This document shows positions 11,415 to 50,467 of a DNA stretch of 64,000 bases, piece by piece. Below the pieces are notes generated by a model. The model made no database searches, had not been told where the DNA came from, and was given only the letters and a program-made list of their open reading frames with translations. The stretch spans positions 496,001-560,000 of the forward strand of contig JARGXX010000007.1 in assembly GCA_030374765.1 (NCBI GenBank). The letters run 5' to 3'. The stretch's first letter is position 1. Every line of letters begins with the position of its first letter. Both the position numbers and the translations under genes were made by a program. Source of the DNA: Agarophyton chilense (lineage: Eukaryota; Rhodophyta; Florideophyceae; Gracilariales; Gracilariaceae).

Positions 11415-11428
11415 GGTTCGAGCTTAAC

Positions 11429-11438
11429 GAGGGGGGTA
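11429..11438 (+). other. Polypurine tract of element A
   Basis: GAGGGGGGTA lies immediately before the 3' LTR (TGTACTATTC...). It is the expected primer site for plus-strand DNA synthesis and helps fix the LTR boundary. Confidence 0.7.
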
Positions 11439-15251: not shown

Positions 15252-15372
15252 CATAGCAGACGCTGGGTTGCCAGCTCACAAGCTAGGTAGCTAGCTAGCT
15301 AGACAATCCTTTCGGCGCTTGATATTATCCTTGCGTGTACGCTTTCGGCACTGCACTTGAGAGTTGTGCTAC

Positions 15373-15402
15373 TTTGTTTGTTTGTTTGTTTGTTTGTTTG
15401 TG
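15373..15402 (+). repeat. (TTTG)n microsatellite
   Basis: About seven tandem TTTG units lie in the spacer upstream of the transporter gene. A cytosine-rich tract (CCCCTTCCCCC type) follows at 15489-15522. Confidence 0.9.
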
Positions 15403-15599
15403 TACAATTACAAGAGTGTGAAGCGGCGCTTCGCCGTTCCCAATTGCGCAATTACCATGCGCGCGCGCCATTTGCGCAACGTCAAGCACCCCTTCCCCCT
15501 TCCCCCTCCCCCCCTCCCCCCCACGTATGACCGCCTCGCGCACTTCCGTACGTTGCATGAGCGTCAGTCCTCCGCTGCGCTAATGCGTCCCCGCCCGCT

Positions 15600-16384
15600 A
15601 TGTACTCGCCGCTCGCGTCGCTCGCGCCACCCGATTCGTCTGAGCTCGAGCCCTTCGAGCCGCTCGAGTCCTTCGAGCCGCTCGAGCCCTTCGAGCCGCT
15701 CGAGCCGCTCGAGCCCTTCGAGCCGCTCGAGCCGCTCGAGCCGCTCGAGCCGCTCAAGCATACACGCGCGTCTCCGTCACCGCCGCCGCTCGCACGCCGC
15801 TGCATAGAGCGCACTCCGCCGCGTATCACCGTCGCACACTGCTTCCTATCGTTTGTCATCTGCAACATGGACCGCATCAATCTATCAGTGGCCATCATCC
15901 CCATGGCGGCGCACTACGGCTGGACGCAGACGCAAAAGGGCGTCGTGCAGGCCGCCTTCTTCCTGGGCTACATGAGCACGCAGATCGCCGGCGGCAAACT
16001 GGCCGATGCGCACGGCGGCCGTCGCGTGTTGGCCGCCGGCGTGTTGCTGTGGAGCGTGTGTACTGCGCTCACGCCCATCGCCGCCGATGCGTCGCTGCCC
16101 TGTTTGCTGGCCGTGCGCGTGGTCATGGGCGTGGGCGAGGGCGTGGCCATGCCCGCCATGAACGCGCTTGTCACTGTGGCCATGGGTTGCGATCATGCCA
16201 CGCGCGCGCGCGCGCTCGCCTTTGTGTACTCGGGCATGTACGCCGGCTCCATCGTCGGCTTGCTCATCACCGCCGCCATCGTGCGCCTAGCCGATTGGCG
16301 GCTGGTGTTCTACGTGTGCGCGCTCATCGGCGTCATTTGGAGCGTCGTGTTCTACGTGCACGCCGCGCCAGTAGTACAGCCACC

Positions 16385-16418
<34 letters not shown>

Positions 16419-17036
16419 GCAGCGCCTCCAAGCGTGCGCGAGATGCTGTCGCGGTCGTGCGTGTGGGCCATCATCGTGGCGCACTTTTGCTGCACGTGGG
16501 GCTACTTTGTGTTGCTGAGCTGGCTCCCAACGTATCTCAACTCGCGCTTCGGTGTGGACAGCACACACTCCTCACTACTATCCACTGTGCCGTGGGTGGC
16601 CATGTTCATGACGGCCAACATCGGCGGGCAGATAGCTAGCTGGTTACAGCGCGGTGGGCTGAGTCGCACGCACACGCGCAAGGCAATGCAGGCGGTGGGC
16701 TTTGTGGGGCCGGCGCTGATGCTGGCGTTGCTGGGCGGCGCGCGGCGACGCACGAGTGCCGTGGCGCTGGTGACGGCGGCGCTGGCGCTGGGCAGCTTCT
16801 CGCAGTCGGGCGTGTACGCCAACCACGCCGAGGTGGCGCCCACAGCGGCTGGCACGCTGTTGGGCGTGTCCAACACATTTGCGTCGATGCCCGGGCTGCT
16901 GGGCGTGGCGCTGTCCGGCTGGCAGCTGCAGCGCAGCGGCGACGATTGGGCGGCGGTGTTTGCGGTGGCCATTGGCTTTGACATACTGGGGCTGGTGGTG
17001 TACACCGCGCTGGCGACCTCGCGGCGGCAGTGGTGA
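15600..17036 (+). CDS. MFS anion/phosphate transporter (SLC17/PHT4 type)
   Basis: A 478-aa major facilitator protein with about 12 membrane segments. The first segment carries the SLC17/PHT4 signature CNMDRINLSVAI, followed by YGWTQTQKGVVQ, GYMSTQIAGGKLAD and the A-motif-like DAHGGRR. These transporters move phosphate or organic anions with Na+ or H+; in plants and algae PHT4 members sit in plastid or Golgi membranes. The N-terminal 80 residues are unusual: a Glu-Pro-Leu/Phe tandem repeat, then a Pro/Arg/Ser stretch that could act as a targeting region. A run of 11 Gln (CAA repeat, 16386-16418) sits in the central cytosolic loop between segments 6 and 7. ATG 15600 is the first in frame; an upstream exon cannot be excluded. 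The gene converges on the - strand gene ending at 17190, leaving about 150 bases for both 3' ends. Confidence 0.88.
15642..15755 (+). repeat. Coding tandem repeat (Glu-Pro-Leu/Phe)
   Basis: Nine-base units GAGCCGCTC and GAGCCCTTC alternate for about 110 bases, each encoding E-P-L or E-P-F. It lies inside the N-terminus of the anion transporter and keeps its frame because the unit is a multiple of three. Confidence 0.9.
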
Positions 17037-17189
17037 ACGCTTGGAATGAATGAGTAACAAGTAAGGAGGATAGTAGTTGCAATACAAGTAGCACTAGTAA
17101 TAGTAGGGTTATGTAAACTTTTTTTTTCTTTACTCTTTATAGTCTCTAGCGTGGTTGGTGGTTGGTGGTGGGTGGTGGGTGGTGGGTGT

Positions 17190-18429
17190 TCAGAGCAGCT
17201 GCTCGCCGTCGGAAAAGTCGAGCGACAGCGGGGGCAGCTTGGCAAGCAGAGCGCTGTCGTCGGCGTCGTCGGCGTCGACGTGCATGCGGCGCAGCGGCAC
17301 GGGGCGGTGGCGCGGAGAGTTAGAGCACAACGAATTGTTGAGTTGACGCAGCGAGTCGTCGGCGTGATGAGCGTCGGCATCGGCGTCAAAGCCGCCGCGT
17401 AGCGACGGGTGCAGTTGGCCGCTGACACCGACGCGGCGCAGCCGGCACGTGTACGACGCGCACACGGTGTGAAGTCGCGTGGCCACGTGGCGCGCCCTTT
17501 CGCGGCGGTACACGCAGTACACCACGCGCGCCATGTCGCAGCACGGCTTGTGCTGAGCGTGATGGGAGTGATGGTGGCGATGGTGGTGATGGTGGCGGCG
17601 ATGGTGAGGTGAGGGGGAAGCGTGCGACTGCTGCTGTTGGTGGCGCCGCTGCTGCTGCTGTTGATACTGCTGCGTGGATTGCGTCTGTCGTTGCTGATAT
17701 TGAGTTTGTTGTTGTCGGCGGTGGTGATGGTGGTGCGGCTGCGATTGCGATTGCGATTGCGATTGCGACTGCGACGGCGACGACGGCGACAACGAGTGGT
17801 ACGTGTGCGCAAAGAAGCGCATGCGCGCGCGCACGTCCTCTTCGGACGGCTCGGCCACGCGTAGGCGTTTCTTGATGAGCTTCCGCGGCTTTTGACCCGG
17901 TTTCAAGTCCTGTGCCACGTACACCTCGCAGTCCTTGTGCTTGTTCAAGTACGCCTGCACATTGCGCCGCAGAGGCGCGGCGTTTCCGGCGATCTTGCGG
18001 CGCTCCAGTCGGTTCCAGATGGTCACGTGCTCGTTGGGCGCGTCGCGCTCGGCGTCTGCCTCAGCGTCGGCATGCACGTTGGCAGTGGTGAGGGGGGCGG
18101 CGGCTGCGGCGGTGGCAGCAGAGGCGACAGCTGTGACGGGGTCGCGCGACAGGCGCGTGCAGCAGCTGGCCGTGACGGAGCAGGAAGAGGAGGAAGACAA
18201 AGATGACGACGATGTGGACGACGGCGACGGGGGCGATGAGGCCAACGTCGAGGTGGAGCACTTGTGCGACAAGCGCGCGGCCGTCGACGCCGACGCCGCC
18301 GCGGGCGCCGCGTTGGACGGCAGCGAGTCGGGAGGTGGGCGGCCGTGTACTGAGACGGGGTGCTTGTGCTGGCGCGGCGGCGGTGGCGGCGACGGCTGCG
18401 AAGGCGCGGCGGCAGCACCGGTGACAGCG

Positions 18430-18465
<36 letters not shown>

Positions 18466-18626
18466 GCAGAGGCTGCAGCGGTGGTGGTGATTGTGGTGGT
18501 GGTGACAGAAGAGGAGGAAGACGGCGGGGCGGCTCGCGCGAATTGGGGGCGGCGCAGCGGCAGCGACGCGGCGGTGGACGCGCGCGGCGAGGCGGGCACG
18601 ACTTGTGGCGCGCGACGGGCTGCCAT
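17190..18626 (-). CDS. Low-complexity protein with a conserved-looking WNRLERRK motif
   Basis: A 478-aa frame from ATG 18626 ([10 protein letters not shown]); the frame stays open to 18992, but the upstream part is a Pro/Ser-coded GC repeat, so the shorter start is preferred. Long homopolymers of Ala, Ser, Thr, Gln and His are encoded by trinucleotide runs. One ordered segment stands out near residues 215-295: [16 protein letters not shown], then [18 protein letters not shown], and [16 protein letters not shown]. It looks like a short nuclear regulatory domain, but I cannot name the family. Near the C-terminus is a Cys-containing basic stretch and an acidic tail ([20 protein letters not shown]). 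A nuclear or regulatory role is only inference from composition. Confidence 0.6.
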
Positions 18627-19000
18627 GGCGGGAGCGGCGGGCGGGGGAAGGACGGGAACGGAGAAGGGGGGGGAGGGGGAGGGGGAGGGGGAGGGGGAGG
18701 GGAAGGAAGGCGGGAAAGGATAGCGCGCGAAGAAGGGGGAGGCGTCGACGGCGGCAACATTGTGTGGGTTGCAACAGCGCAAAGCGGGCGCGTTATGAAG
18801 GCGGGCGAGCTGCGCGAGCGTCGCTGGCGCGGCGGGCACGGGTGCGGCGCCCGCGGGGGGGCGAGCGCGACGGGTGCACAACGACCGTTCACGCGTGCCA
18901 TAGCTAAGAAGCCAACACGCAGTGCGCTCTGAAGCGCAAGGCGACCACAAGCCGTACGCGCGCGGCGCGTGCGCGCGGCACCGGAGCGGCAAACTTCAGC

Positions 19001-19051
19001 GCGCACGACGCCACAGCGCGCACGACGCCACAGCGCGCACGACGCCACAGC
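19001..19051. repeat. Triple 17-bp tandem repeat
   Basis: Three exact copies of GCGCACGACGCCACAGC in the GC-rich spacer between the two - strand genes. A CCTT run (19262-19277) and CGCCGC runs occur in the same spacer. No gene is supported between 18993 and 19550. Confidence 0.9.
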
Positions 19052-19550
19052 GCTGCCGCCGTGCGTGCTGCTGCGTGCCAGAGCACGTACTCGCCGCGCT
19101 GTGCGGCGTATCTATCTACTCCCCACCCCCGAAACGCGCTGTTTGTATTTTGCCCCAAGATCATGCCCCATTTACAGCTTACAGCGAGCGCGCTGTAAGG
19201 CCGCTGTAAGACTGTAAGATCGCTGTAATCCGTCGCACACGTGCCACCCCCCGATCCGCTGCTTCCTTCCTTCCTTCCGTCCGTCGTGGCGCCGTTGGCC
19301 GCCGCCACGCTGCGCGTCGTCCGCGGCCCGTGCCGCGCGCCGCCGCCGCCGCCGCCGACACCACCGCTTTACACACAGCGAGCGCGCGCTCGCCCGCCCG
19401 AAATGCCCACCCGTGCAACAGCAAAACACCACTCCTCACACCATCGACCCAAAATACCTTCGCCAATTCCCCGACCCCCCCCCCACCACGACTTGCTGCC
19501 CCCAACGCCGCCTCCCCTTCTCCCGTCTTGAGACTCTCCGCGCTCCCAAG

Positions 19551-22500
19551 TCACTCACAGTGCCCCCGCCGTTTCTCCATTGCTCCTCCGCCCACCGGCC
19601 CCATCCACACCGTCTCTCCCCTCGTAGTCGTTGCCGCCCCCCCCACCCTACCCTCCACGTCACCACCACGCTCGTCCTTGCCCGCGCTCTCCCCCCCGCG
19701 TCGCACCCCACACACCCTCCCAACCGCCGCCGCCACCACCGCCCGTACTGATCCCGTCGCCCCCTGCGGCCCCACCACCATCAGCACTGCCGGTAGCAGC
19801 ACCAGCGACCACATCGCACTCAGCAACACCGTGCACACCAGCAGTCCCCCAAACTTGACGAAAAACGTTATCATCGCCGCAAACAACACCACCGCCGACG
19901 TCAGCGTCGACAACGCCCCAAACCAGATCGACACCCCCAACGTCAGCAGCGCGTGCCGCGTCCGCTCCACTCGTCCTTCCTTGCCGCACTCCACGTACGC
20001 CGTCGCCATGTGTGCCACCCCGTCAAACCCGTACCCAATGCTGATCACCACAGCAATCGTCTCCGTCGTCCCCAACTCCCAACCCACAGCGTGCATCACC
20101 CCAAGCAACATGCTCACCAGCCCGCCAATGCAAACCGTTGCAATCAGCGATACCGCCCAGTTCATCGTGCACACCGTCAGCGTCACCAACGCCACCCCCA
20201 CCATGATCCCCACCCCACTGAACATCGATATAACCAGCGTCTCCTGGCTCCGCATCCACGACCACACGTTGATTCCCCCCTCCACGTTACCCGCTACTCC
20301 GCTCGTCACAAACGCACCCCGATCCCCGGACGCCTCCGGTCCAATCGCGTTCAGTCCCTCCGTCGCCGCCTTCCACTCGTTGTAGATCGGCCGCATGAAC
20401 TTGGCCGTCAGCGCCGGCTTCTTGCCCGTCACGAACCGAATCTCTGTGAACACCACCCGCTCCTGCTGCGCCGAAAACCCGATCGCCTGCGACTTTATGT
20501 ACCGTTCGTACGGCCTGCTGTTGTCTGCCGCCTCAAACGCCCCGAACCGCTTCAGCTCCTCCGCCAGCTGCGCGTGCGTCTCAAACGACTCCAACCCGTC
20601 CTTCTTCAGCTCCTGTTTGCGCCACTGCTCGTAGTCGCTCACCCAGCAGTCCACCGCCTCTTCCATCGCCGCCTGCTGCGTCACCAACCCCTCCCGCCTC
20701 ACAAACCACCCGCACGCCCTCCGCACCTGTTCTTGCACTTCCTTGCGCCGCAGGTCAAACCTCTCGTCCAGCACCGCGCGCCCGATCGACTCGGGCTGGA
20801 AGCGCGACGTGCCGGATCGATCAATGTCCGAAATGCCCCACGTTACCCGCGCCTGTAGCGTCACTGCCCGTCGCTCCTCCCCGAAACCGTCTGCCAAAGT
20901 TGTCTGCAACACCCTCAGCGGGTGGTCGCTGGGCAAAAACTGCTCCGTTTCCTGGATCGGCTCCAACTTGGTCGCCCCGTACACACCCAGGCCCGCCAAA
21001 ACCAGTGCCAACACTACCAGCGCGTATCGCCCTCGGTATATCAGTTTGGTCCATATCCCGCCGAAAAAGCGCTCCAGAAAGCTGTAGTGCAAGCCCGCGG
21101 TGTCGTTCTTCTTCTGCCATTTCCCCGGCAGAAACTTGAAGTAGAACGGCATGTTGCTGCTGCTGCTGTGATTGCTACTGCCGCTGCCGCGCTCGCTCCC
21201 GCTTTCAGTCCTCTTGAAGCACGGCAGGCAGCTGCGTTGTGACCAGAATCGGTGCCAAAGTATCACGGCCGAAGGATACGCCGTGATCACCAGCGCAAAC
21301 TGCACCAGCACAAGCAATCCTGCCCACACGCCCAGCGTGCTGATGGGCATAATGGGCGAGGCTGCCGTCACGAAGAACGCAGCAGCCGTCGTCACCGACG
21401 TCACCATCATCGCCCTCACGGCCCGCCGGTACGTCCAGTCCATCCTGGTGATGACGTCAGCTTCGGTTCCCAAATCTACCAGCGACTGCTTCCACGCGTC
21501 TGTGAATACAAACACGTCGTCTGCGCCGATTCCCAGCAACAGGAAGATGGCAAGAATCTGCAGCGGCGCAAAGTACTTTTGTTGGAACACGAAGTGGTAA
21601 AGCACGTACGCCACCGGGAACGAAAAGAATATTTGACCCAGCGCTGCGACCGCCAAGAATGCACTGCCCGTGTGGAACCAGATAACCAGAAACACGAGAA
21701 CAATGGCCACCACGCAAAACGACAAATCCCTCAACGCCGTGTCAGAGAACGCAGCGTTTCCCAGTTTTACACTGGTTAGTGTGACATCGTATGCTTCTGT
21801 GGATAGCTGCTCGACCGTGTCTGTTTCGCGCAGACCCCACTGAACGTATTGGTCTTCTTGTTCTGCTTTTCTGTCGTCAATGGCAGTGTAGCCTCGAAAA
21901 GGACCTCCGATGCGCAAAATGCTGCGCATGAGCCAGGTGCCGTTGCCTCCAACCGAAAATTCTTTTCCAACAAACTCCTTGTACGCCGCATTGACGACGG
22001 CATTTCCCTCGCTGTCCGTGTCGACTAGCGAGTTCAAAAACGAGGCAAACCGCTCTTCCGCTGGCGGTTCACTCGTATTCCTTCGGCCACACAAACGGCC
22101 TTCCTCCCATATTCCGTAGAGGAATGGGCTGTTGGTGAGTGACAACGGATGGGCGCATGCAAGGTTGCGGCCAGCGCAATCTTTGGCAGTTTCGTCAAAG
22201 TAGCAATATGAAGGATACTCCGCTGTGCCCAGAATATCGTCCTCGATTTGCTTGAGCAGAGCCAAGTTGTTGCGAGTTAATACATTGGAAGCTGTTTGCT
22301 TTTCGTCCGCATTGGAAGGGAGTTTTTCAAATTGCGGCGGCAACTTTCCGCGAAACAAAACGTTAAGGTGAAATTCAGGTCTCTCGGTGGCTCTTTCCAC
22401 AACAGAGGCTGATGCGCCAAACGCATATTGTTCGCGAGCAGCTTCTCGTGCGTCGAAAAGGCGGGTTAGTTCATCGTTGCGAATGAAAAAGTCAACACCG

Positions 22501-22664
22501 TTTGGGTCATCAAACGCGAACTGACGCGAAAGGGCAATGATAGCTATGGAGAGAAAAGGAAACGCGTACGCAAGCAGACAGGTCTTCTTGGTGTGGTTGA
22601 CAGATAAGCGCGTCCACAGACAAGGTTTGGCGACGGCAGCCGCCGAGCCGTCACTAGTAGCCAT
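19551..22664 (-). CDS. Dispatched/Patched-like RND membrane protein with sterol-sensing domain
   Basis: A 1037-aa single-exon protein of the eukaryotic RND superfamily (Patched, Dispatched, NPC1). A first membrane helix lies at about residues 28-46, then a large extracytosolic loop, then a sterol-sensing-like block of helices (about 300-470) with the signature GIGADDVFVFTDAW near residue 378. A second large loop is followed by a second helical block with GYGFDG near residue 877. The paired Asp residues in helix 4 and the single Asp in helix 10 match the proton/cation relay of this superfamily; the GIGADD-F-D-W form resembles Dispatched more than NPC1. The C-terminal tail is short and cytosolic. 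In this organism it probably moves lipids or sterols; a Hedgehog role is not implied. ATG 22664 follows a TATA box by about 70 bases. Confidence 0.88.
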   Translation of the reverse strand: MATSDGSAAAVAKPCLWTRLSVNHTKKTCLLAYAFPFLSIAIIALSRQFAFDDPNGVDFFIRNDELTRLFDAREAAREQYAFGASASVVERATERPEFHLNVLFRGKLPPQFEKLPSNADEKQTASNVLTRNNLALLKQIEDDILGTAEYPSYCYFDETAKDCAGRNLACAHPLSLTNSPFLYGIWEEGRLCGRRNTSEPPAEERFASFLNSLVDTDSEGNAVVNAAYKEFVGKEFSVGGNGTWLMRSILRIGGPFRGYTAIDDRKAEQEDQYVQWGLRETDTVEQLSTEAYDVTLTSVKLGNAAFSDTALRDLSFCVVAIVLVFLVIWFHTGSAFLAVAALGQIFFSFPVAYVLYHFVFQQKYFAPLQILAIFLLLGIGADDVFVFTDAWKQSLVDLGTEADVITRMDWTYRRAVRAMMVTSVTTAAAFFVTAASPIMPISTLGVWAGLLVLVQFALVITAYPSAVILWHRFWSQRSCLPCFKRTESGSERGSGSSNHSSSSNMPFYFKFLPGKWQKKNDTAGLHYSFLERFFGGIWTKLIYRGRYALVVLALVLAGLGVYGATKLEPIQETEQFLPSDHPLRVLQTTLADGFGEERRAVTLQARVTWGISDIDRSGTSRFQPESIGRAVLDERFDLRRKEVQEQVRRACGWFVRREGLVTQQAAMEEAVDCWVSDYEQWRKQELKKDGLESFETHAQLAEELKRFGAFEAADNSRPYERYIKSQAIGFSAQQERVVFTEIRFVTGKKPALTAKFMRPIYNEWKAATEGLNAIGPEASGDRGAFVTSGVAGNVEGGINVWSWMRSQETLVISMFSGVGIMVGVALVTLTVCTMNWAVSLIATVCIGGLVSMLLGVMHAVGWELGTTETIAVVISIGYGFDGVAHMATAYVECGKEGRVERTRHALLTLGVSIWFGALSTLTSAVVLFAAMITFFVKFGGLLVCTVLLSAMWSLVLLPAVLMVVGPQGATGSVRAVVAAAVGRVCGVRRGGESAGKDERGGDVEGRVGGAATTTRGETVWMGPVGGGAMEKRRGHCE

Positions 22665-22727
22665 GGCGAGTCGTCGCGTTCACATTGCGGGCGTTTGGAA
22701 GCTCACGCTCATGCTAAAACGCGCTGG

Positions 22728-22741: not shown

Positions 22742-22877
22742 TATGACTAGCTCGTGCAGGGCTGCGAATCGCCGAAGGGCCGAAGACCGTTGTCGGGGAG
22801 CGCAAATTAACAAACCGCATATGTGCCTCCGTCGTGGTCGAGAGTGGGACGCGCGTCACGCCCAAAACGCGTCATGT

Positions 22878-22914
22878 CTAGTGTCTATACGACCACTGGC
22901 CTCATATGAGGCCA
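22878..22914 (+). repeat. Left terminal repeat and palindrome of P1
   Basis: CTAG (22878-22881), TGTCTATACGACCAC, then the perfect 18-bp palindrome at 22897-22914. The downstream 60 bases (gtaaactttgtcaatttcc and onward) are nearly identical in the copy at 62894. Confidence 0.8.
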
Positions 22915-23072
22915 AAATTACAAATCGATAATTTTTGTAAACTTTGTCAATTTCCTTAAATTTTTGTGCCTAGACGTTGTCAACACTTGGCGTCAACCTC
23001 AAAGATCACGAACGATCGTCCACAACCTGAAAACACACATTCTTTACTTCATTCCTTCATAATTTATCAAAT

Positions 23073-24261
23073 ATGTCATCATGTATGGATCCCCGTCGTG
23101 TAGTGGGAAATAGAGTACATACCCGCCCACGTCTCACCATTTCAGAGAGCGACTGTAAACGCTTCTTTGTCACGCAATGAAAAACGAAACCGGTCAGCGG
23201 AAGTGTTACGTAGACGTTGCTTTCAAGAACAATCGGAAACACACTTTTGTCACGATAAACTTCGAGATACCTGGTCGCGAGAAAATATTCCCTCTCAAAT
23301 ATTGTAATGTAAAAGCCAGCGATCATGTCACGGTTAAGGAAACTGCTCAAGAATTCATTAATTCCAAAGTGGAGATAAATGGTGCTGCTTTTACTAATGA
23401 AGTTTCGAACCATGAAGAGCAACATACTATCACGGATGGCGATCAATGTCACACAATAAATCCGTTGAGCCCTCCTAATGTGACAAATAGTGACACGCAG
23501 GACATCTTTGTGGAAGTTCATTCGACGAAACGAACAACTGAAAATGTATCCTTGACTCTGAATGGTCCAGTGCAAATGCATCAATGGAAAGTCACGGAAC
23601 CTGTTGGAAATTTTACCTTCGCCATTTATGCACCTTCGGGACTCCTTCTTTATGATATCTTCATGTTGATGTTTCCTGTAGCTCATTTGGAAAAAATAGT
23701 TCGATCTAATAACTTTCGGCTCGAAGAAAAAGGCTTAAAGCAGACTACAGGAGGTGAAATTTGGAAAGTTTTTCGGTTTGATTGTGTTAATGACACGCTT
23801 CGAGTTTTCAAATAGAAGATCGCTTTGGTCTTAAGACACGTTTTCTAAATATATCGAATCTCCGCAGCTCGGAAAGATCATGTCACGGAATCGGTTTGAA
23901 CATATACGGCAATTCATCGTTTTCAGTGGCTCTGAAAACGATCAAAAATCAGACGAATGCAGACGGTAATGCATTTTTGAGTTTGTGAAAGCTATATTTG
24001 ACCATCGGAAAGCGTTCGTAACTCCGTCACACACTTTTTGCGTGGACGAAAGTATATCACGTTGGTATGGACTTAGAAGGAACTGGATTGATACTGGACT
24101 TTCCCACTGCACTGCTCTTGATAGGAAACCTGAAAATGGTTGTGAACTAAAGACAGTGTGTTGTGGAAGGAGTGGAATTATTCTCAAAATAGAAATAACG
24201 ATGGGAGCTACGCATCCAGATGTACAGCCTTCTGAATCGGAACATGCGCAGGTAACAGGTG
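23073..24261 (+). pseudogene. piggyBac-like transposase, N-terminal two thirds
   Basis: Likely start at ATG 23073 (MSSCMDPRRVV), the position and sequence shared with the second copy at 63103. A frameshift near 23170 leads into the frame 23177-23815, then another leads into the frame from about 23860. Recognisable parts are APSGLLLYDIFMLMFP, LGKIMSRNRFEHIRQF, then the DDE_Tnp_1_7 core FCVDESISRWYG near 24040 with the first catalytic Asp, and the second block ALDRKPENGCELK. The protein breaks off at AQVTG, where chromovirus B begins. Internal stops (near 23970) and shifts make it non-functional. Confidence 0.8.
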
Positions 24262-25177
24262 TGTGGAGCAAAACCCGGCGACGGGAAGTGCTCTCAAGGT
24301 GTTCGAAGCCTTTCTCCCTGGAGGAGGCAGACTCAGAGACAGAGCCCTCCGTTCCACCCGTAGTGTGGGGTGTAACTCCCACGGGGGATTCCGGCAGTAC
24401 CGACGGAGGTGAGGGGTAGAAACCGTTGGATCGGGAATGGGTATGGGTATCCCAAAGAATTGGGGAAAATCCGGCGAAGAGGAAAAACGGGGCGAGGGTC
24501 GGGCACTAACAAGCACCGGTCCCGAGAACCAGAAAAGGGGCGAAACAACAAAAGAAACCCAAGACAGGGGCGAAAACCTGTCCTCGAAAGGAAACACAAA
24601 AAGCACGCAACAAGTAAGCAGAACCCCCACGGGGTATCGTGCACGCAGGTCGTCTGAGCGGTCCCAAGGGGGTGGTTGCACGGAACCCAAACGTGGGCAC
24701 TCTCCAAGTGGAGTCGTGTCCCTACGCAGGCGTTGCTAACCAGAGCCCGTTCCGGGTTGTAAGGCCGAAACGATGGCGACGAAGAACCTCTAAAGGTATC
24801 GAAGACCAACCTTGGCTACCATTTACTTTGAGCTTCGGACTGCCAGATCTCATCTCCCTAAGTAGGGCCCACTAACTAAACTCTACAGTAGTGCACACCT
24901 GCTCAGGGCCATACACGTGGAGATCCCACTGTCAGGGCCCAAAAGTCCAACGTTCTAACAAATATCCGAAAATCGGTGCCAAAATTAAGCCACGTGTATC
25001 ACGGGGCCAATCCAACCATGGGCCATCCGAATTTTCACTTCATAGGCGAACTCTAACCAGAAAACAGTGCCACCTCAGCACACCTTAGAGGGGATCATAG
25101 TCATAACCCTCGGAGGGTTCAATCCTCATTCTGTGAGTTGCATCTTCAAGTATCCCCTAACTGGGCGTTGCTCTACA
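24262..25177 (-). repeat. 3' LTR of element B
   Basis: About 98 percent identical by eye to 35225-36141. In the sense direction it begins TGTAGAGCAACGCCC and ends CCACA. Open frames inside it (24208-24690, 24333-24809 and others) recur in the other LTR and are not genes. Confidence 0.93.
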
Positions 25178-25191
25178 TCTCCCCCTCCTTA
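25178..25191 (-). other. Polypurine tract of element B
   Basis: Sense strand TAAGGAGGGGGAGA directly abuts the TGTAG start of the 3' LTR. Confidence 0.75.
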
Positions 25192-25238: not shown

Positions 25239-25248
25239 CTATATATAC
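25239..25248 (+). promoter_or_regulatory. Possible TATA box for the antisense gene of element B
   Basis: CTATATATAC on the + strand, 62 bases inside the 3' LTR boundary and about 140 bases before ATG 25388. It is placed to drive transcription opposite to gag-pol. Elements A and C show no equally clear TATA at this point. Confidence 0.35.
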
Positions 25249-25387: not shown

Positions 25388-27114
25388 ATGAACCCATACG
25401 TCCTCAACCCACTCTCGGGGCCATCGGCCTCCGCGCCGGCGGACAACGAAGCTCCCCAGCAGGGTGGATATTCTCCGGTTTGGATGCGGCTCCGTCAGGT
25501 ACCGAACCTTCCGCCTCGGCGAGCAACCGACATCCTCAGGAGGATTTGGACATTAACGCGGTGGCGTGGAACTCCGCTCATGCGATGCCCTTGGTAGCAA
25601 ACTCCAGAGGTTGGATCTCAAACGAATCCTTTCGAAGGTAGAGTCCCCTTACCGATCCGGTGATATATTCCCGCGCTCCGTGGTTCCATCCGACAGCGGT
25701 TCGCGACGATGAGCTCATCGACTCCTACGTGGAGGACGGCTTATTGCCCGGTGGCCTACCTGTCGAGGTTGTACGTTCTCCCGATTGGATGGCGCGGGTA
25801 GCCATAGAGCCTCAGTATCTATACCGCGGTCGCAGGGAGTCCCTGGACAAGGCGCGCGCAGCGATGGCGGCTCTGGCCTACCAGCGATTGGAGAGGTCAC
25901 GCTTTGACCATCTGGTTCCCCCGGAGTACGGGTTCGATGTCGCCTATTATCGCACGTACGGTGAGGTCTCCTACGGGGATAACCTGGCAGCCTTTCCCGA
26001 AGCCGAGCTCCGCGGACCGGGTTTTCCTCTCCGAGAAGATATGCTCCAATGGAGTCGTCCCATCCTTCGGGCTGAGTTCAGGTACCTTCAACGGCAGTTT
26101 ACCCAGTATGGGTTCGATCGACGCGTGCGCTTCGAGCGCCGTTCGCGCTCCCGTCTCGGGTTCCTTGTCCCGTATCCTCACGTGGAACTGGAGCGTATCC
26201 GTAACACGGCGAAGGTTGAGCGATTCGTGCCCCTTCCAGCTTGGTGGAGTAAGGTCGAGGTCCCCCGAGGGTGCTTTGCTGAACTGCCCCCATGCATCTA
26301 CTATATCGGGTCTCGTTTGATGCACGACCCGAACTCGGGATACTGGGCCCTCGTTGCAGCCGAGTGGGCAGCCCGCGTAGCGGCGCACCTCCTCTGGGAT
26401 GCTCATGACCATTTCCGTATCTGGTATATTCCTCCGATGCTACGGACCATCATGCGTCAGATCGACCTTGTCCCAGCGTTGGGTTCGGCCAGCAGCGTGC
26501 AGGACCTGTATCCAATCTTGGACGTGATCGACAACACCCAATGGGATCGAGTTCCAGTGGAAAATCAGCCCGCAGGGGAAGGATCCGCGCGAGACAAGTC
26601 TCCTGGCCGGTACGATCCGGGCTCCGGTAACTGGGTCTATTACAATCCCTTCGAAGGGGTTCGCATCAGCGCGGCGCAAGCACGGGCGCTGATTGACTCG
26701 CCTCGACCGATGCCGGTGGGACACCCGACGGGGTTCATTTATACCGACGATTATGAGTACGAGCCTCCAGTAGACCTGGACGATCCAGCGTTGGATAACG
26801 ACATGCCAGCTCCTAGTGGAGTACTCCCTGTGGAGCCATCTGCACCCTTCCAACCAGTGGGAACGACCTCAGCTGCGGCGGCGAATGCATCCGGTGGCGG
26901 TCCATCTGCTCCCCCTGGGTGGGGTGTGAACACCCTTGCGCAGGCGCCGGTTGCCACTCCGCAAGCGGATAGTGTGCGACACGGCCTCGTGAACGCGGGC
27001 ATTCCGATTCCCCCGGGTATGACGGATGTGAGCCAGATGTTGGCTTTCGCCTCGGCGTACCATCAGGGTCAGAATCCCAACGGTGGGGCGGGTCCCTCCT
27101 CGGGCTTTCCGTAG
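25388..27114 (+). pseudogene. Antisense env-position ORF of element B
   Basis: The long open part is 25660-27114 (about 484 codons), on the strand opposite to gag-pol. Homology to the element A product continues upstream: ATG 25388 opens MNPYVLNPLSGPSAS, like the A start MDSNAGSNPF, then a frameshift before 25597 and a TAG at about 25639 separate it from 25660. Conserved blocks are RAPWF-P, RPILRAEFRYL, RRSRSRLGFLVPYPHVELERIRN, EVPRGCFAELPP, YIGSRLMHDPNSGYW, LDVID, KSPGR, GNWVYYNPFEG, QARALIDSPRPMP and HPTGFIY, then a Pro/Ala-rich tail with NAGIPIPPG. There is no membrane segment, signal peptide or known catalytic motif. The frame ends 5' to a polypyrimidine repeat that separates it from pol. 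Function unknown. Confidence 0.82.
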
Positions 27115-27174: not shown

Positions 27175-27345
27175 TGCATAACTTCTTTTCTTCTTCCTTC
27201 CTAGGATCTTAACTTCTACTTCTTTTCTTCTTCCTTCTTAGGATCTTCTTCATCTTCTTCTTCATCTTCTTCCCTTCCTAGGGTCCAATCTTCTTCTTAA
27301 TCTTCTTCTCCACTTCGTGGGTCTTCTTTTCCTTTTTTTCATCAT
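27175..27345 (-). repeat. Polypurine simple repeat between the antisense ORF and pol (element B)
   Basis: On the sense (-) strand this is AAGAAGAAGATGAAG-type repeat with three GATCCTA(A/G)GAAGG blocks, about 170 bases. It holds the same place as the purine repeat of element A, but with a different sequence. Confidence 0.8.
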
Positions 27346-27515: not shown

Positions 27516-30500
27516 TTACCCGACTTGGGCACGATCCAGACTTGGAGGCAAGGTTACCCGAGCGCGTCGGTGATAGGATAAAACCTTAGACCTCGGAAGG
27601 TGCTCAATGGGTTCCACTGTATCCTCATCAGGCGAGAATCCGTACCATCGGACTTGGTAGCGGACTTCTCCCTCGGGGGTGTAGATGTGACGCACGATGC
27701 GATCGATAACGAATTCCTGCGGGTACACTTTTCCCTGTTCGGGCTTCTCTTCCATCTTGTAACGCTCTAGTTCCCTTGAGGGTGTCAACGTAGGGTCTAG
27801 ACACACCCCGGTGGGTTCTTTTCCGTGTTGCGAGCGGGTCTCAGCACTTCGTCCAAACGGCGCCGAGTGGCCTGTGGGCTACGTTGTAACTTCCGTGTAC
27901 GGAGTCAAAACGGCCCAGTTTTGGGTTCTTCTTAAAGCTGCGATCTTCCCGATAACAACAGTGTTCTTAGATTCTGTGACGGTGGAGAAACCGCGACGCG
28001 GTAGCGTTTCCAATCTCAGGGGGGTAAGACTTCAACGTCAACCCGAGCTACGGGGACGAGGGTTGCTCCCGTGCAACGCGCCGTGCTACGGAGGCGGTTT
28101 GCGCGACGGTTGGTCGTCAGAGCCTTTTGATTGGCTCGGTGCCATTCGACGTGTGCCACCCAAATGCGCGGGCGCCCCGTGTGGGGTGACCGTTCCTTGT
28201 GCGGGAAAATCTGCCTATGCCGATGTGAGGTGGCGCTTTCGACACGCGCTAGCACTCTCCTGAGCTGTCCCCGACGGGTCTCACTCATTTCTTTCCCATT
28301 CCTGAGGGTTCCAGTGTCTCCATAGGAGTTCCTATTCCCATTCCATAACGGAGAGCCAAATTTGGTCAACCTCGTCGTCGAGATCTTCCCCGTGCGGGTC
28401 CGCTGACACAGCTCGTTCCCGAGAAAGCGGGGTTTGAGTGTGTGACACCTCAGTGTCTCGTCCGAGGCGGCGGGTGATCGTCGGCTCTCTAGGCGTTCCG
28501 GGTGCGTAGTTCTCCACACGACTCTCCCTAGGCGGGGTTTCGTCATCTTTTCTGACGTCGTGCTCGGCTGGGTCGGCGGTGGTGTCGCTACCCATACGCT
28601 GGGGTTGTGACTTCTCTGTCGCCGGCTCGGTCGGGCTCGCCGTCTCACTGTGAGAACTAGATTCCCTGTTAGGGCAACTGGCTGACGCCGAAACATCGTC
28701 CTGCGAAGGAACTAAGTCCTCCTCCCCCTCCTTAGGCGGAGAGCCAGGAGGCTTGATTACCTCCGGTGGGGGAGTAACTCTGTAAGAGTTCGTTGACTGG
28801 GCCCTTGAGGGAGCGGGCCCAGGTTCGGGAGTATCCGAAGTTTCCGGTAGGTCGGTTAAACCACGTTCCGGGTGCGGAAGTATAACGGGGCGGGTGTTCG
28901 AATCTCCGCCTGACGGGTTAACTTCCGTTGAATCATCCCCTGTGGAGGGCGTTGGTGCCGACACCACTTCCACATTTGGGTTGGGCGCTCGTGTGATGCG
29001 GTCCCTGGAGATACGTTCGTGGCGGTTAGCGATATCCAATACCACCGTGTCCGGGTCTACAGAAACCACACGATAGGGTCCGTCCACAATTGGCGAAAGC
29101 TTGTGCCTACGTTCCTTTTCAGGATTGTAGTATTCCTTTCGAAGGTAGACGAAGTCGTCGGGCTCCACCTGAGGTAGAGGTTTGCGAACCCGATTGTCAA
29201 AGTCCTTCTTGTAGGCACGTTGAGCTTTGTCCATTGCTTTCCGGGCTATCGGCATCATCTTCGTAAGCCACTCCTTCCAGCCTTTTCGGTACAATCCCGG
29301 TGACGAGTACGTCGACAGCGTCGGTTGAGCCTCGATGGCGACCGGCGGCGGTGTCCTCGACAGTACCAGTTCGAATGGGGATAACGATGTAACCCGATGT
29401 ACCTGGGTGTTGTATGCATACGTGATAGCGTCTGTGTACAAGTCCCAATTTTTGGGGTGATCCGCAACATACGATCTCAAAGCGTTGAGTATCGTGCGGT
29501 TAAACCTCTCCACCTGGCCATTCCCCTGAGGGTGATACGTAGTAACAAATAAATTCCTTACATCAAGGATTCGACATACATCCTGAAAGAACTTTGATGC
29601 GAATTGCCCTCCGTTGTTGGATAACAACTGCACGGGCGGTCCATATACGAACACCCAATGGGTCACGAACGCTTGCGCGACGGTAGCGGCGGTGATCCGC
29701 TTCAGCGGCACAGTTCTCGTTAGCTTAGAGAATCTGTCAGAAATGCCAAGCAGATACCGATGACCTCGGGGCGTCCTGATAAACTTCCCTAGGATGTCTA
29801 TAGCCACGAATTCGAGTGGAACCCGTGTCGGGAACAGCGTCAACTTCTTAGAGTGCTTTCGAAGTTTGACGTCATTCTTGGCGCAATTGGCGCAGGCCCG
29901 CCCGTCTGACGGCGTAACAATCGAATGCCATTGCCGGCCAGTAAAAGTCCCTTCTCAACGTGAGGTACAGTTTTCTTCCCCCGGGGTGGGCGCCAATCTT
30001 CACATAGTGAGTGAGGTGTAATACCCTCTGTTGTAGGGTGTGCGGCACCACTTTTTTCGGGCGAGGTCCAACGGTCCTGATTAGGTAACCCTGATCGTCG
30101 TCCTCGAAAGGTAACTGAAATCCTCCGTTGAGGCGAGCCCGAATCCGTGTACAGAATGGGTCGAGCTGTTGCTCGCGTATCATCTCCTCTGGAGAGATAG
30201 GTATAAAAGAGCCGGTCGGCGAATCCAGTCTCTCGTTGACGAGTATATCGTCACAAACATCATCCGTCAGCGGTTGAGCTCCTCCCTCGAGGTCCGATAC
30301 CATAAAACATGGGATGTCATCGTCCTCGTAGGGTTCCGTTTCCGCTGTGGTTCCCAAGCGAGATAGTGCATCAGCCTGAGTGTTCAGCTTCCCTTTCTTG
30401 TACAGGATCTCAAAGTCGAATTCCAACAGTCGGAGACGCCAGCGCATAAGGCGGCCCGAGGGTTCGGAGATCTCCAGAAGCCAACGCAAGCATGCGTGGT

Positions 30501-32868
30501 CCGTATGGACTTTGAAACGAGTACCCATCAGATAGGGGCGAAGTGTAGCTAAGGCCCACACAACGGCTAAACATTCTTTCTCGGAGACCGAGTAGTTCCT
30601 TTCATGGACACTCGGGGAACGTGACCAGTACCCAATAGGGTGACGTTCACCATCCTCAGAGGATTGGAACAGTGCAGACCCTACTTGGTTTGCACTAGCA
30701 TCGGTGTTCACTTCGTAAGGGAGGCCAGGATTGGGTAGAGCCAAGATTGGCGGTGATGTTACGGCATTCACCAGTGCCGTGAAGGCAGACGCTTCCGCGT
30801 CGCCAAAAGGTTCCAGTTCAACTGGTTGTCCCTTCGTCAGGAGCCTGTTGAGGGGGGTGGCAATATCCGCAAAGTTCGGGACGAATCGGCGATACACGTT
30901 ACACAGACCTAAGAAGGATCGCAACTCCGTTTGAGTTTTCGGGTGTTTTGCTTCCTTCAAGGATTTCACTCGTACTTCATGGATTGAAAGCTGTCCGGGA
31001 CGGATGATATGACCCAGATACTTAACCGAATCGGGGAAAAACTCGCACTTCTTGAGTTTCAAGGTGATTCCCGCGTCGCGGAGTATCTTCATTACGTCCC
31101 TGACGTGTTCGAGGTGGTCATCCAGGTTGTTGGAGAAGACAATAATGTCGTCAAAATACACTAGACACGTCCTCCACTTGAAGGGAGCCAACAGAATGTC
31201 TATCGCCCGTTGAAACGTTGCGGGGGCATTTGTCAACCCAAAAGGCATCCTCCGGAATCGGAAAAGTCCTTGGTGACACACGAAAGCCGTTTTGTCTCGA
31301 TCTTCCTCCCTAATAGGGACTTTCCAGTAGCCAGAATTGGCGTCGAGGGTAGAGAAAACAGTAGCGCTCCCAAGGGAGTCGATGTATTCGTCCATCCGAG
31401 GAATCGGGTACACATCCTTCATGGTTACCTCGTTCAGGCGGCTGTAATCGATGCAGAAACGCCACGATCCATCCGGTTTCGGAACTAACACCACTGGTGA
31501 GGCCCAAGCGGACTGGGCAGGTTCAATTACGCCCGCTTTAAGCATCTTCCCCACCTGAGATTTCTCCTCTTCCCGAGCTTTCGGTCCAGCCCTGTAAGGG
31601 TGTTGGGCAATAGGCCGAGTGTTCGGTAACAAGTCGATGCGGTGTTCTGTAATCCCAATAGTTCCAAGGGAAACATCCCACATGGGGGTAAATTCACGAA
31701 GCATGTGCCTCAGCTTCTCCCGATGAAATGCAGGTACATGGTTGAGATCCCATTTCTCCAATTCCTGAACAGGATCCGTCTGGTCTGCTCCTGTGATAGG
31801 GGCCGTAACCTTCTGAGGTTTAAAGTGTTCAGCGTGTGGAGCTGCAGTCGTATGCTCACCGTCTTCCGCGATTTCGGCAGTGTCCTCCCCCTCCTTAGGG
31901 TCCGCCACACCAAGGACCTCTGCGATAGAGATCTTTGTAGGTACGACCGCATGCGGGTGTGGAAGAACAGAACCCAGGATCTGGTGTTTGACCAAATGCT
32001 GCGTTGTCTTTCCAAACTTGGCTACCAAAACCTTGAAAGGTTTATCCGGTTCCACGGAGACAACCCCATTCGCAAGGGCCAGTTGACGCCGCGTATACAG
32101 AGACGGGTTCGGTTGTACCACATGCACACCAATTTGCTTGGTAACAACTGTGACCCAAACCTGGGTTTCTGGCGGGATAGCCACTGACTTCGCAACCTTT
32201 ACCCGTGTAGACACCGGGTCCTTCTTCACAGATTCCTGCGCGACAGGGAGAGGAACGCGTGTTCGCGCTGCTCCCTGTAAGGGTTTACGAACGATTGGGA
32301 TCGTAGACCCCTCTTCGAGTTCCACAGTTCTATTCCGAGGACGGATAGCTTCCACGAAGCGGTCGCAAAAGTCACAACCCAGTATGACTGGTGCTGCAAG
32401 TGACTTGCATACAATAAACTCTAGCTGAACGAGATAGGAGCCTAACCTAACCATGAGGGAAATTGTACCCAGTGTCCGTAGCGGGTTGTTGTTCGCATCG
32501 GCGATATCCAAACGTGGACCGGTACGAACTTGAACCCGGAGCAGCGGGGGTAACAATTCAACATGAATTAAGTTAGGAGCGGCTCCTGTATCCAGGACAG
32601 ATATTTGACGAACCATAAACTGGTTGGACAGGCCGAAGTCGGCGAATACTTTATAATTCCGCTTGGCCATTACCATAACTCGATCCGGAATACGGAGATT
32701 ACGGGACCGTATCCACGGGCGACGGAGGACACTAAAGTATCCCGAGTTAACGTCGGTGTCAGCCGTTCTCCTTGAAAGGATAGTCACAGCTGGGGAGCGA
32801 AGCTGGAGCGCCTCGGGAGTCTTCAACTCCGGCTTAGAAGACGCCCCTCCCGCAGGGGATACTCCCAA
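27516..32868 (-). pseudogene. pol: pol of element B: PR-RT-RH-IN-chromodomain
   Basis: The first frame (32868-29872, 998 codons) holds protease VLDTGAAPNLI, reverse transcriptase with YFDD (31158-31147), RNase H (VNTDASANQVG, TDHACLRWLL) and the start of the integrase finger. A one-base shift near 29905 moves to the frame 29843-28332 with the integrase core. There the first catalytic Asp is present (AIDILG), the second is changed to Asn (LSNNGGQF, codon 29618-29616) and Glu is present (QVERFN). A GPY/F-type module (VDGPYRVV) and a Pro/Ser/Thr-rich linker follow. After stops between 28331 and 27807 the same frame reopens with the chromodomain (27806-27516), FVIDRIVRHI then YQVRWYGFSPDEDT, where the usual Trp before EP is Val. 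pol begins right after the gag stop in another frame, which suggests frameshifting or a separate start. Confidence 0.93.
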
Positions 32869-32870
32869 CT

Positions 32871-34996
32871 TTAGTTTTTCGAAGCGGACCCCACCGAATT
32901 CGGTGCAGCTGCCTCGAACGGGACCGGTTGTTCCCCGTTCGCGGGTACAAGTTCTTTATCCCTGTCAGCAAGGTGAGCTCGGAGTATCCTTTGTTCCTCA
33001 TAGGACCTACTCGAGACTCGAGCTTTCTCCTCAGCGGTCAGAGCCTCGTACTGAGCGTTAATTCGTGAACCCTCCCGCAGGGGAAATGTGCAGTCTGGTG
33101 CTTTGTGACCACGGAGGTAACGCAAATAGCAAATCAGCTCTGCTGGGTTCGGTTGTGGACGTGAATCCACGCGACGTGGTGCTGTATCCCTCCAATTCGG
33201 TTGTGGACGTGAATCCACGCGACGTGGTGCTGTATCCCTCCAATTCGGTTGTGGACGTGAATCCACGCGACGTGGTGCTGTATCCCTCCATCCGGGGCGA
33301 GAGAACCGAGCAGCGGTATTCGCAAAAGGTAGCGATGCGGCTGGCATCCTCCGTCCTTGGGTATAGAGCGCAGGGTCTTCATCCGTAGTCGGAGCGGATG
33401 TCGACGGCAACTCAGACGTACCCATAGATTCGGGGTTACTTCCCATGAAGTGAATGTTATCATTGACCCCCACAGGGGCAGGGCCTCCTGCGAGTGACAA
33501 AGACGAGTTACCTCCATCGGCGAGGAGTGCACGTGTCGGCCGACTCTTTCGGTTCTGCCGGGCACGGAGAGTATCCCCCTCAGCCTGGGCGTACTGAACC
33601 AGTTCCAAGTAGGTCAGCTTGCGCTTCTCTTCCCGATGTCGGGCAACCAATGCCCTTATCGAGGGGTCCAAACCATCCACAAACATGGTGCATCTCTCGT
33701 AGGCGGGGAATACATTCCCGCATCGGTGAAACGCTTTATTCAAGCGAGTTGAATACACCGTTTCGGTTTCCATCGGCTTTTGCCGCGTATCCCTTAATGC
33801 AAGGATTGCTTCCTGATCGCATTTCCAGTAGCGTATGACCTCAAGAGGTACTGCACCGCTTCGGGCCAGCACGTGACTCCCCCTTCCGAGGCTCGGGATG
33901 ATCCACGGACGGAGTTGAACTGGTCTTCAGCCATCCCCTTTAAGAAATAGGGTAATGCCAGATACGCTTGCGCTTCACTCATACCGAGGATGTCAGCCTC
34001 CTGGACGTACCTCGCAAGGAAATCGAGCACCAGAATTGGGTCTGTTCCTGTGAACTCCCTCTTCTGTAGGGTGATGCTCAGCCTTTTGATGTAGTCCTTG
34101 ACCTTACCCGTTCGGCGGGATGTTCGATCTCCCGAAGGGTTATCCAACCGGTAATAGCGGTACGATAGCAGCTTCCGATAGAGAGGATTCGTCGGCTTCA
34201 GCTCCCTTAATCCAAGGTGTTTCCTACCCTTCTTCCAGGTACGGATTGCCCCTTGAGAGGTGTAAGTAGCCTTCGACCGAGTCGCCCGGGATGACCGGCG
34301 TCCATCTTCACTATCCGAAGATTCGGAGGACGAACTCGATGACGAGCGATTGGGATCGGAATCCGATATATCCTCTTGGAGGTGAACCCTCTTCTTGGAC
34401 TTGCGGCGGTCCCGTTTAGCGGAGCGGTGTTCTTCGTCTTCCGAAACGTCGGGTTTATCCTTTGAGGCTTCTATGTCTCCGGCCATACGGATAATGGCCT
34501 CGAGGGTGTCCAGCCGAGCTCGGAAGCGTTCCGCTTGCACGCGGTGTTCCTCCACGAGGCTCCGGTACTCCTGGATAAAGACCCCAGGGGTACCAAAGCT
34601 TTCCAAAAGGGAGTTCACATCCCTCCTCAGGGTACGAAGGTCATCGGCGACTCCCCGCACCGGGGCGTCCTCCACCTTGAGGCGGAGGGTAGTAAACTTT
34701 TGAAGGAGCTCGACGTGAGCCGCGTTGGCGATATCGATTCGAGTCTCCAGGCGCTGTAATTCAGGGTCGGCCCGACTTCGGGGTCCTGCTGAGGGGGTCT
34801 CCACCACTGGAGCTGGGCCCATAGCCACGACCTCTCGAGGACCTGAAACCACTGAGGGGGCTCTCCGAGTGTCCGGATCGATACCGGAATCGTTCCGATC
34901 TTCGGGAATTGAGCTCCTCGACCTAGGCGACGCCGGGGGCACTGAATCCGCTTGACGGTTCGATCCAGTCCTGGAACCACGGGTAGGCGGCGACAT
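32871..34996 (-). pseudogene. gag: gag of element B (one frameshift)
   Basis: The start is ATG 34996 (MSPPTRGSRTG). The N-terminal part has Arg/Ser/Pro-rich and coiled-coil-like regions, then DISDSDPNRSSSSSSSESSDSED. The capsid-like domain matches element A (YLALPYFLKGMAEDQF, WPEAVQYLLRSYA). A one-base deletion near 33813 shifts the frame; the remainder (33872-32871) reads EAILALRDTRQKP onward. Near 33140 the zinc knuckle has lost its second Cys: CYLR replaces the C-x2-C pair, by a TGT to CGT type change. Three exact 16-residue repeats precede it. Confidence 0.88.
33148..33291 (-). repeat. Exact 48-bp triplication inside gag of B
   Basis: Three identical 48-bp units, in frame (16 residues each, containing WRDTAPRRVDSRPQPN). 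They sit just before the degenerate zinc knuckle. Exact identity points to recent slippage or unequal exchange. Element A has no such repeat. Confidence 0.92.
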
Positions 34997-35201: not shown

Positions 35202-35222
35202 GGATTCTAAGTCGGGAGACCG
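35202..35222 (-). other. Primer-binding site of element B
   Basis: Sense strand CGGTCTCCCGACTTAG and onward, two bases after the 5' LTR. Apart from the first base the first 18 bases match element A, although LTR sequences differ completely. Confidence 0.6.
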
Positions 35223-35224
35223 CT

Positions 35225-36141
35225 TGGGGAGCAAAACCCGGCGACGGGAACTGCTCTCAAGGTGTTCGAAGCCATGCTCCCTGGGGGAGGCAGACTCAGA
35301 GACAGAGCCCTCCGTTCCACCCGTAGTGTGGGGGGTAACTCCCACGGGGGATTCCGGCAGTACTGACGGAGGTTAGGGGTAGAAACCGTTAGATCGGGAA
35401 TGGGTATGGGTATCCCAAAGAATGGGGGAAAATCCGGCGAAGAGGAAAAACGGGGCGAGGGTCGGGCACTAACAGGCACCGGACCCGAGAACCAGAAAAG
35501 GGGCGAAACAACAAAAGAAATCCAATACAGGGGCGAAAACCTGTCCTCGAAAGGAAACACAAAAAGCACGCAACAAGTAAGCAGAACCCCCACGGGGTAT
35601 CGTGCACGCAGGTCGTCTGAGCGGTCCCAAGGGGGTGGTTGCACGGAACCCAAACGTGGGCACTCTCCAAGTGGAGTCGTGTCCCTACGCAGGCGTTGCT
35701 AACCAGAGCCCGTTCCGGGTTGTAAGGCCGAAACGATGGCGACGAAGAACCTCTAAAGGTATCGAAGACCAACCTTGGTTTCCATTTTACTCTGAGCTTC
35801 GGACTGTCAGATCTCGTCTCCCTAAGTAGGGCCCACTAACTAAACTCTACAGTAGTGCACACCTGCTCAGGGCCATACACGTGGAGATCCCACTGTCAGG
35901 GCCCAAAAGTCCAACGTTCTAACAAATATCCGAAAATCGGTGCCAAAATTAAGCCACGTGTATCACGGGGCCAATCCAACCATGGGCCATCCGAATTTTC
36001 ACTTCATAGGCGAACTCTAACCAGAAAACAGTGCCACCTCAGCACACCTTAGAGGGGATCATAGTCATAACCCTCGGAGGGTTCAATCCTCATTCTATGA
36101 GTTGCATCTTCAAGTATCCCCTAACTGGGCGTTGCTCTACA
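35225..36141 (-). repeat. 5' LTR of element B
   Basis: Matches 24262-25177 at about 98 percent by eye. Its outer edge, gttgctctaca at 36141, abuts the resumed piggyBac-like reading frame. Confidence 0.93.
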
Positions 36142-50464: not shown

Positions 50465-50467
50465 AAA

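Follow-up and report, generated by a model that had tools for sequence, protein, structure and literature searches.

In the red alga Agarophyton chilense, three divergent chromodomain retrotransposons (elements A, B and C) that lie in a 64-kb stretch of DNA, referred to below as the window, each contain a long frame antisense to gag-pol, between the chromodomain and the 3' LTR. This frame keeps the same place and strand in different element families, encodes proteins that are homologous between families, is constrained at the amino-acid level and has its likely start beside the polypurine tract. We propose that it is a protein-coding accessory gene of a red-algal chromodomain Ty3/gypsy lineage, whose product may be a trans-acting nuclear factor, a reading to which, taken as a whole, we would give about an even chance.

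Antisense frames and their host elements

The genome comprises 80 Mb in 135 contigs. Blastn of LTR pairs placed element A on the plus strand of the window and elements B and C on the minus strand. RT and integrase stretches are present in each and, by domain content (RT, RNase H, integrase and a C-terminal chromodomain between LTRs), all three are Ty3/gypsy elements with a chromodomain, which Pfam recognised as PF00385. Since RT identity is 60% between A and B and 52% between B and C, they represent divergent families, in agreement with an earlier note on this DNA, which had called them divergent chromoviruses and had judged the LTRs of A and B to be unrelated. Indeed, no LTR similarity between A, B and C was detected by blastn at E <= 0.1. 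The landmarks of the elements and of their antisense genes are as follows.

1415-2041, plus strand: 5' LTR of A (blastn, 90.4%; boundary approximate, TG..CA ends suggest to ~2052)
2055-2071, plus strand: primer binding site of A (17-mer)
8368-9255, plus strand: end of A pol including the chromodomain (PF00385, E 1e-6)
9588-11270, minus strand: antisense gene of A, read from a likely start codon at 11270; the window copy has one in-frame stop just below 10239 (sequence, alignment)
11428-11440, plus strand: polypurine tract of A, beside the 3' LTR (sequence)
11441-12068, plus strand: 3' LTR of A (blastn, 90.4% like the 5' LTR)
24262-25177, minus strand: 3' LTR of B (blastn LTR pair, 97.7% over 917 bases; TGT..ACA ends)
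25178-25191, minus strand: polypurine tract of B (sense strand), abutting the 5' side of the antisense gene (sequence)
25388-27114, plus strand: antisense gene of B, likely ATG at 25388, stop at 27112-27114 (sequence)
27516-27878, minus strand: chromodomain frame of B (PF00385, E 2.8e-8)
28332-32955, minus strand: RT/RNase H/integrase frames of B (28332-29954 and 29872-32955; PF00078, PF17917, PF17919, PF17921, rve)
35206-35222, minus strand: primer binding site of B, one change relative to the A 17-mer (sequence)
35225-36141, minus strand: 5' LTR of B (blastn, 97.7% like the 3' LTR)
40881-41331, minus strand: 3' LTR of C (approximate; blastn, 80%)
41609-43690, plus strand: antisense gene of C from its likely ATG, several stops in the window copy (sequence)
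43730-44251, minus strand: chromodomain frame of C (PF00385, E 9.6e-8)
50463-50915, minus strand: 5' LTR of C (approximate; blastn, 80%)

The 17-base primer binding site of A and B has 1053 exact matches genome-wide, and its reversed pattern has 0. Three perfect 48-base tandem copies lie in the gag region of B (33148-33290). Outside the three elements, direct repeats 73-78% alike lie 40 kb apart (22877-23772 and 62893-63803) and are perhaps remnants of another repeat family. The stretch between elements at 13324-22679 carries host genes (glutaredoxin/thioredoxin, MFS transporter and sterol-sensing/Patched-like) and has a GC content of 59-70% across 14001-22000. Scans of the window for tRNA and Rfam matches found none. 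Elsewhere in the genome, on contigs C44 and C49, Ty3/gypsy-family RNase H matches are spaced at exactly 6523 bases, like a tandem element array.

The antisense frames lie where the earlier note had reported them, though the window copies of all three are damaged. In A, the minus-strand frame is open over 10239-11423 (394 codons) and, past one in-frame stop, over 9588-10238 (216 codons). In the window copy of B the N-terminal part is out of frame and 25639-25641 is a stop, after which the last 490 codons (25642-27114) are open; many other B copies are open for 640-650 codons from stop to stop. In C, the open pieces span 41486-42100 and 42329-43690 (453 codons). When each region was re-sampled 500 times under an order-1 Markov model, the longest frames obtained were 313, 337 and 389 codons, compared with the observed 394, 490 and 453 in A, B and C, respectively.

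The antisense proteins of A and B belong to one family. They match over most of their length by blastp (E 7e-87) and over 495 columns by hhalign (E 3e-66), at an identity of 35-40%, which bears out the ordered blocks they had been said to share. The best other pair of frames, a sense one, gave E 5e-36, as expected for a shadow of the antisense frame. At the level of antisense DNA, only A and B could be aligned by blastn (58-70% alike), with no match between A and C or between B and C. The protein of C had been described as matching weakly but in the same order, and this description held. The initial alignments of C with A/B gave an hhalign E of 0.0016 and a probability of 16% (E 0.095 with A alone); once two further families (D and E; see below) and database proteins had been added, the match reached E 2e-5 and a probability of 77% over 212 columns, in order. 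In a shuffled-alignment test, seven pairs of A/B/D proteins with C gave z values of 4.1-13.1. With a HMMER profile of A/B/D, the best true match among C-type proteins scored 5.9 bits and the best decoy 3.4; in the reverse search these scores were 2.7 and 2.0. On account of the final hhalign value and the shuffled alignments, and with direct HMMER scores close to those of decoys, we consider it very likely from sequence comparison that the C-type protein is a distant member of the A/B family. From the N- to the C-terminus, proteins of the family consist of a region of low complexity, a conserved core of ~350 residues, a linker that is again of low complexity, and a short motif that is conserved. 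C-type proteins have a basic PKKRARL-like motif at their end, which varies among copies.

Copies, families and amino-acid constraint

The antisense gene is present in the genome in at least 105 copies of A type, 87 of B type and 93 of C type, as counted among the best-scored candidates (with the 394-codon part as the query for A). The match is free of internal stops in 56 of the 87 B copies, 26 of the 105 A copies and 7 of the 93 C copies. B elements were also selected by their integrase: of 40 listed places, the eight ranking directly below the window copy were taken, with one place at a contig end left out. All eight fetched elements carry the antisense gene; seven copies of it are complete, five of these without a stop, and one is cut by a contig end. 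Allowing up to 3 mismatches, B words from the antisense gene occur at 299 places and those from the integrase at 228, which may reflect unequal conservation of the words or partial elements that retain the 3' end. Among 100 listed integrase places, 61 are on contigs C1-C37, and an exact antisense word lies on the proper side of 47 of these and on the wrong side of none. Since the antisense listing shows exact words only, 47 of 61 is a lower bound, and 4 of the other 14 places adjoin B antisense matches.

Beyond A, B and C, the survey covered 150 chromodomain matches, and the 2.5 kb beyond five of them was fetched. One of these (L079, family D) has an A/B-type antisense gene with one stop (E 3e-100 to B) and another (L077, family E) a damaged C-type gene (E 3e-18); no antisense homologue lies within 2.5 kb beyond the chromodomain in L075 or L078. 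The fifth, L076, is presumably a host SNF2-type helicase gene, judging by motif, and not an element. The gene is present in two of these four further presumed chromodomain elements; for L078, a long open frame is the sole reason to regard it as an element. The status of D and E as families is based solely on the distance of their antisense proteins from those of A, B and C, with identities of ~38-42% and 24-30%, respectively. Most of the B elements checked thus carry the frame, though not every chromodomain element does. Nor is it a capture limited to the window copies; it recurs in five element families, and other homologous proteins exist in Gracilariopsis chorda and Agarophyton chilense. 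Indeed, all named homologues are from these two species of the Gracilariaceae, where they are known as proteins.

Pairwise dN/dS of the antisense frame lies below 1 in every set (0.44-0.72), though constraint within families is modest. It was 0.44 (0.35-0.58) among 30 copies of B, 0.48 (0.41-0.56) among 7 copies of C, 0.64 (0.54-0.76) for the first 394 codons among 30 copies of A and 0.72 (0.56-0.95) for the 3' part of A (29 copies). These values are biased downwards, since the B and A sets are the 30 best-scoring protein matches out of 87 and 105, respectively, and long frames were the criterion for the C set; the integrase-selected copies of B gave 0.60 (0.44-0.87, 7 copies). In the same sets, the remaining two antisense frames gave 0.78-1.23. 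One sense frame was low as well (0.51 in B, 0.73 in A and 0.59 in C), as expected because it mirrors the same third positions, and it is broken by 19 stops per copy in B and by 24 in A. The antisense frame of A, at 0.64, is hardly set apart: of the five other frames, three lie at 0.73-0.78, among them a second sense frame with 0.75 and the antisense +1 frame with 0.78. As sense-frame yardsticks, the chromodomain of B gave 0.78 (0.58-1.07), the chromodomain end of A 0.74 (0.59-0.93) and the integrase C-terminus of B 0.92 (0.68-1.26). In the B set, with copies chosen by the antisense frame, that frame diverges less (0.022) than any of five other compartments (0.041-0.091).

A null distribution was obtained by relocating every variant at random among sites with identical neighbours, the statistic being the observed over the expected N:S ratio. 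This was 0.67 for the top 30 B copies (0 of 2000 simulations as low), 0.78 for the 7 C copies (0 of 600) and 0.88 for the 30 A copies (P 0.03). Considering variants found in two or more copies, it was 0.60 in B (P 0.02) and 0.74 in A (P 0.008), and in the 7 integrase-selected B copies it was 0.77 (P 0.057, above 0.05). Under the same null, the two other antisense frames gave 0.89-1.73, none of them low at P < 0.05. Stop gains within families were not clearly depleted relative to expectation: after insertion, copies decay freely. Between families, the codon comparison of A and B gave pS 0.78 and pN 0.44-0.47, with identities of 0.55, 0.59 and 0.29 at the three codon positions; the corresponding values were pS 0.73 and pN 0.44 for B and D, and pS 0.72 and pN 0.46 for A and D. 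Amino-acid constraint is plain between families and modest within them, where it is clear in B and C and weakest in A. Being strongest in the antisense frame, this constraint, together with the presence of the gene in the fetched B copies and in several families, upholds the claim of a retained accessory gene.

Expression and possible roles of the antisense protein

The likely ATG lies 210 (B), 170 (A) and 277 (C) bases inward from the polypurine tract/3' LTR edge and, in D, where the LTR is not mapped, ~97 bases from the presumed polypurine tract. An ATG reading M-N-P or M-D-P is common to A copy L038, B and the database protein P0001, and absent in P0002. The candidate signals in the window, and the repeats that follow the gene in B, are these.

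11388-11395, minus strand: TTTATACG, TATA-like, upstream of the A antisense gene (sequence, weak; in 27 of 30 A copies)
25240-25247, plus strand: TATATATA, candidate TATA box for the antisense gene of B (sequence, weak)
27181-27282, no strand: pyrimidine/purine-rich tandem repeats of B, from the antisense stop to the chromodomain (sequence)

The word CACTATANATA is present in 21 of 30 B copies, and the one D copy has a TATA-like CATAAAAG between polypurine tract and ATG. Such words lend a promoter weak support because they are common by chance, and the window copy of C has none upstream of its ATG. Upstream of the C gene are CCATTGG words instead: the window copy has three of them, and six other stretches, which extend unequally far upstream, have between 0 and 3 each. 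At the other end, the poly(A) word AATAAA occurs 3' of A only, and none of the poly(A) words tried occurs in B. Purine/pyrimidine-rich short tandem repeats equivalent to those of B lie at 9366-9483 in A, again between the antisense stop and the chromodomain; these two repeat regions are where the convergent genes would end.

Judging from this arrangement, it is fairly likely that the antisense gene has its own mRNA. This would be transcribed from the integrated copy under a promoter located at its 3' end, adjoining the U3 of the 3' LTR. Since such a promoter would adjoin U3, the U3 signals that drive gag-pol from the 5' LTR could also switch on the antisense gene.

The antisense protein had been put forward as one not known from other antisense ORFs, and we found no relative of it in Pfam, NCBIfam or PDB sequences. 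The best matches there were non-significant and were not used (E3_binding, E 0.06; DUF3905, 0.21; C_LFY_FLO, 0.39; PDB 7tem, 0.42; 9vyh, 4.3). PF04195 (TRP28) in Pfam had no match in the five window frames or in 13 aligned members of the family. No relative was confirmed among viral contigs searched with an A/B-type alignment, or among prokaryote genomes searched with one protein as the query. Derivation from gag or pol was rejected, alignment z values being -1.1 to 2.0 over 12 comparisons with A and B frames. The statement that the protein has no membrane segment stood for the A/B type, in which the maximum 19-residue hydropathy is 0.93-1.33 in four proteins, and needs qualification for the C type, one of two proteins reaching 1.82 (five of all six proteins lie at 0.93-1.36). 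An envelope gene was rejected on the antisense orientation and the absence of a clear membrane segment in A/B types.

Since the gene lies outside the gag-pol message, and since its product has no clear membrane segment, showed no enzyme signature and has, in the C type, a basic PKKRARL-like motif, the protein might be a nuclear factor that acts in trans on elements of its own family and would raise their transcription, counter silencing or aid integration, as has been proposed for Grande gene23, the TRP28 proteins of Retand and HBZ of HTLV. By analogy we rank this as the likeliest role, while giving it somewhat less than an even chance. No classical NLS was found in four A/B-type proteins.

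Next in rank would be a protein of the virus-like particle, either structural or packaged, translated from a separate message and assembled with Gag. The size of the protein and its conserved core with low-complexity tails would fit, the short C-terminal motif could be an assembly contact, and the lack of an enzyme signature is equally compatible. However, the protein has no sequence relation to the A or B gag and pol frames, the genome also has presumed chromodomain elements that lack the gene, and the basic motif of C-type copies is of a nuclear type, so that we regard this role as rather unlikely. A narrower version of the nuclear reading is that the protein is not simply an activator of transcription but protects the element from silencing by the host. 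The VANC proteins found in plant transposons would be the analogy, and the trans-acting layout, the chromodomain of the partner elements and the high copy number agree with it; however, no domain evidence points to it, and in this specific form it seems unlikely.

The gene could also be a captured host or viral gene carried as cargo, and capture followed by retention would accord with the lack of a relative among the families searched. Against this, the gene sits at one place and on one strand in the three window families as well as in D and E, A and B diverge in it in the direction expected from pol (35-40% identity for the antisense protein, 60% for RT), and no single-copy host version was seen among the best-scoring copies; we consider capture improbable. 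Least probable of all, and quite doubtful in our view, is that the selected product is mainly an antisense RNA pairing with gag-pol RNA, limiting copy number or feeding silencing, with the frame partly a by-product: the layout has a built-in convergent overlap with the genomic RNA, and such roles are discussed for elements of this kind (PMC7264820), but it is the amino acids of one frame that are constrained, and this among families in which the antisense DNA is only distantly alike (A-B) or unmatched (A-C and B-C).

Comparison with known antisense genes

We favour the reading of a protein-coding gene with a nuclear, trans-acting product, and its closest parallels in layout are found in land plants. 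Antisense additional ORFs between pol and the 3' LTR (aORF-3R) occur in plant Ty3/gypsy elements, including Grande gene23, RIRE2 and Retand ORF4, and are kept in most copies and across species; for the Grande gene a promoter of its own is reported, and the role of antisense genes in plant retrotransposons is stated as not determined (passages of PMC7264820 and PMC11963269). The A/B/C gene has the same position and strand, with presence in most copies found for family B only, and homologues beyond one species are known here too, as proteins of G. chorda and A. chilense. The likeness to Grande gene23 and RIRE2 is one of layout. Retand belongs to a non-chromovirus lineage in which 97% of clusters encode PF04195 (TRP28), and about half of its elements have tandem repeats in the interval from pol to the 3' LTR (the same passages of PMC7264820 and PMC11963269). 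Short repeats in this interval are also present in A and B; in contrast to Retand, A, B and C carry a chromodomain and their antisense proteins do not match PF04195.

Outside land plants, as here, an antisense extra gene is found in an LTR element of a fungal host, and it is likened to ours in layout. This is brtn of the Boty-like elements of Botrytis cinerea, reportedly described by Zhao et al. in 2011 (as cited in PMC8365987; PMC7264820). In HTLV, HBZ and other antisense genes have an mRNA from the 3' end of the provirus (parts of PMC7264820 and PMC11963269). We infer both a 3'-end antisense mRNA and a trans-acting nuclear protein for the A/B/C gene, as in HTLV, and assume that the viral and red-algal genes arose independently. 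HBZ itself is a trans-acting nuclear protein.

Among the best full-text literature matches, a set with subscription papers mostly outside it, none described an antisense gene in a red-algal retrotransposon, and the parts covered of PMC2864245, PMC5408684 and PMC6317226 contain nothing on antisense retrotransposon genes. The antisense position, then, has already been described, whereas the host phylum is probably new and the protein family lacks known relatives outside it; we therefore regard the red-algal gene as a variant of the described antisense-gene layout. More tentatively, and with some doubt, these elements may form a red-algal ambisense chromodomain lineage with a second gene that is switched on at the 3' LTR end of integrated copies and controls the silencing or expression of its own family, with an origin independent of plant TRP28 and fungal brtn. 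If this is true, antisense accessory genes have evolved several times at the same place. The many copies and two deep subtypes of the gene offer material for testing its role, and some red-algal 'hypothetical proteins', such as BWQ96_10156, may be transposon genes. Another protein family at the same position, in five element families of a red alga, suggests that the layout known from plants and fungi recurs in distant hosts.
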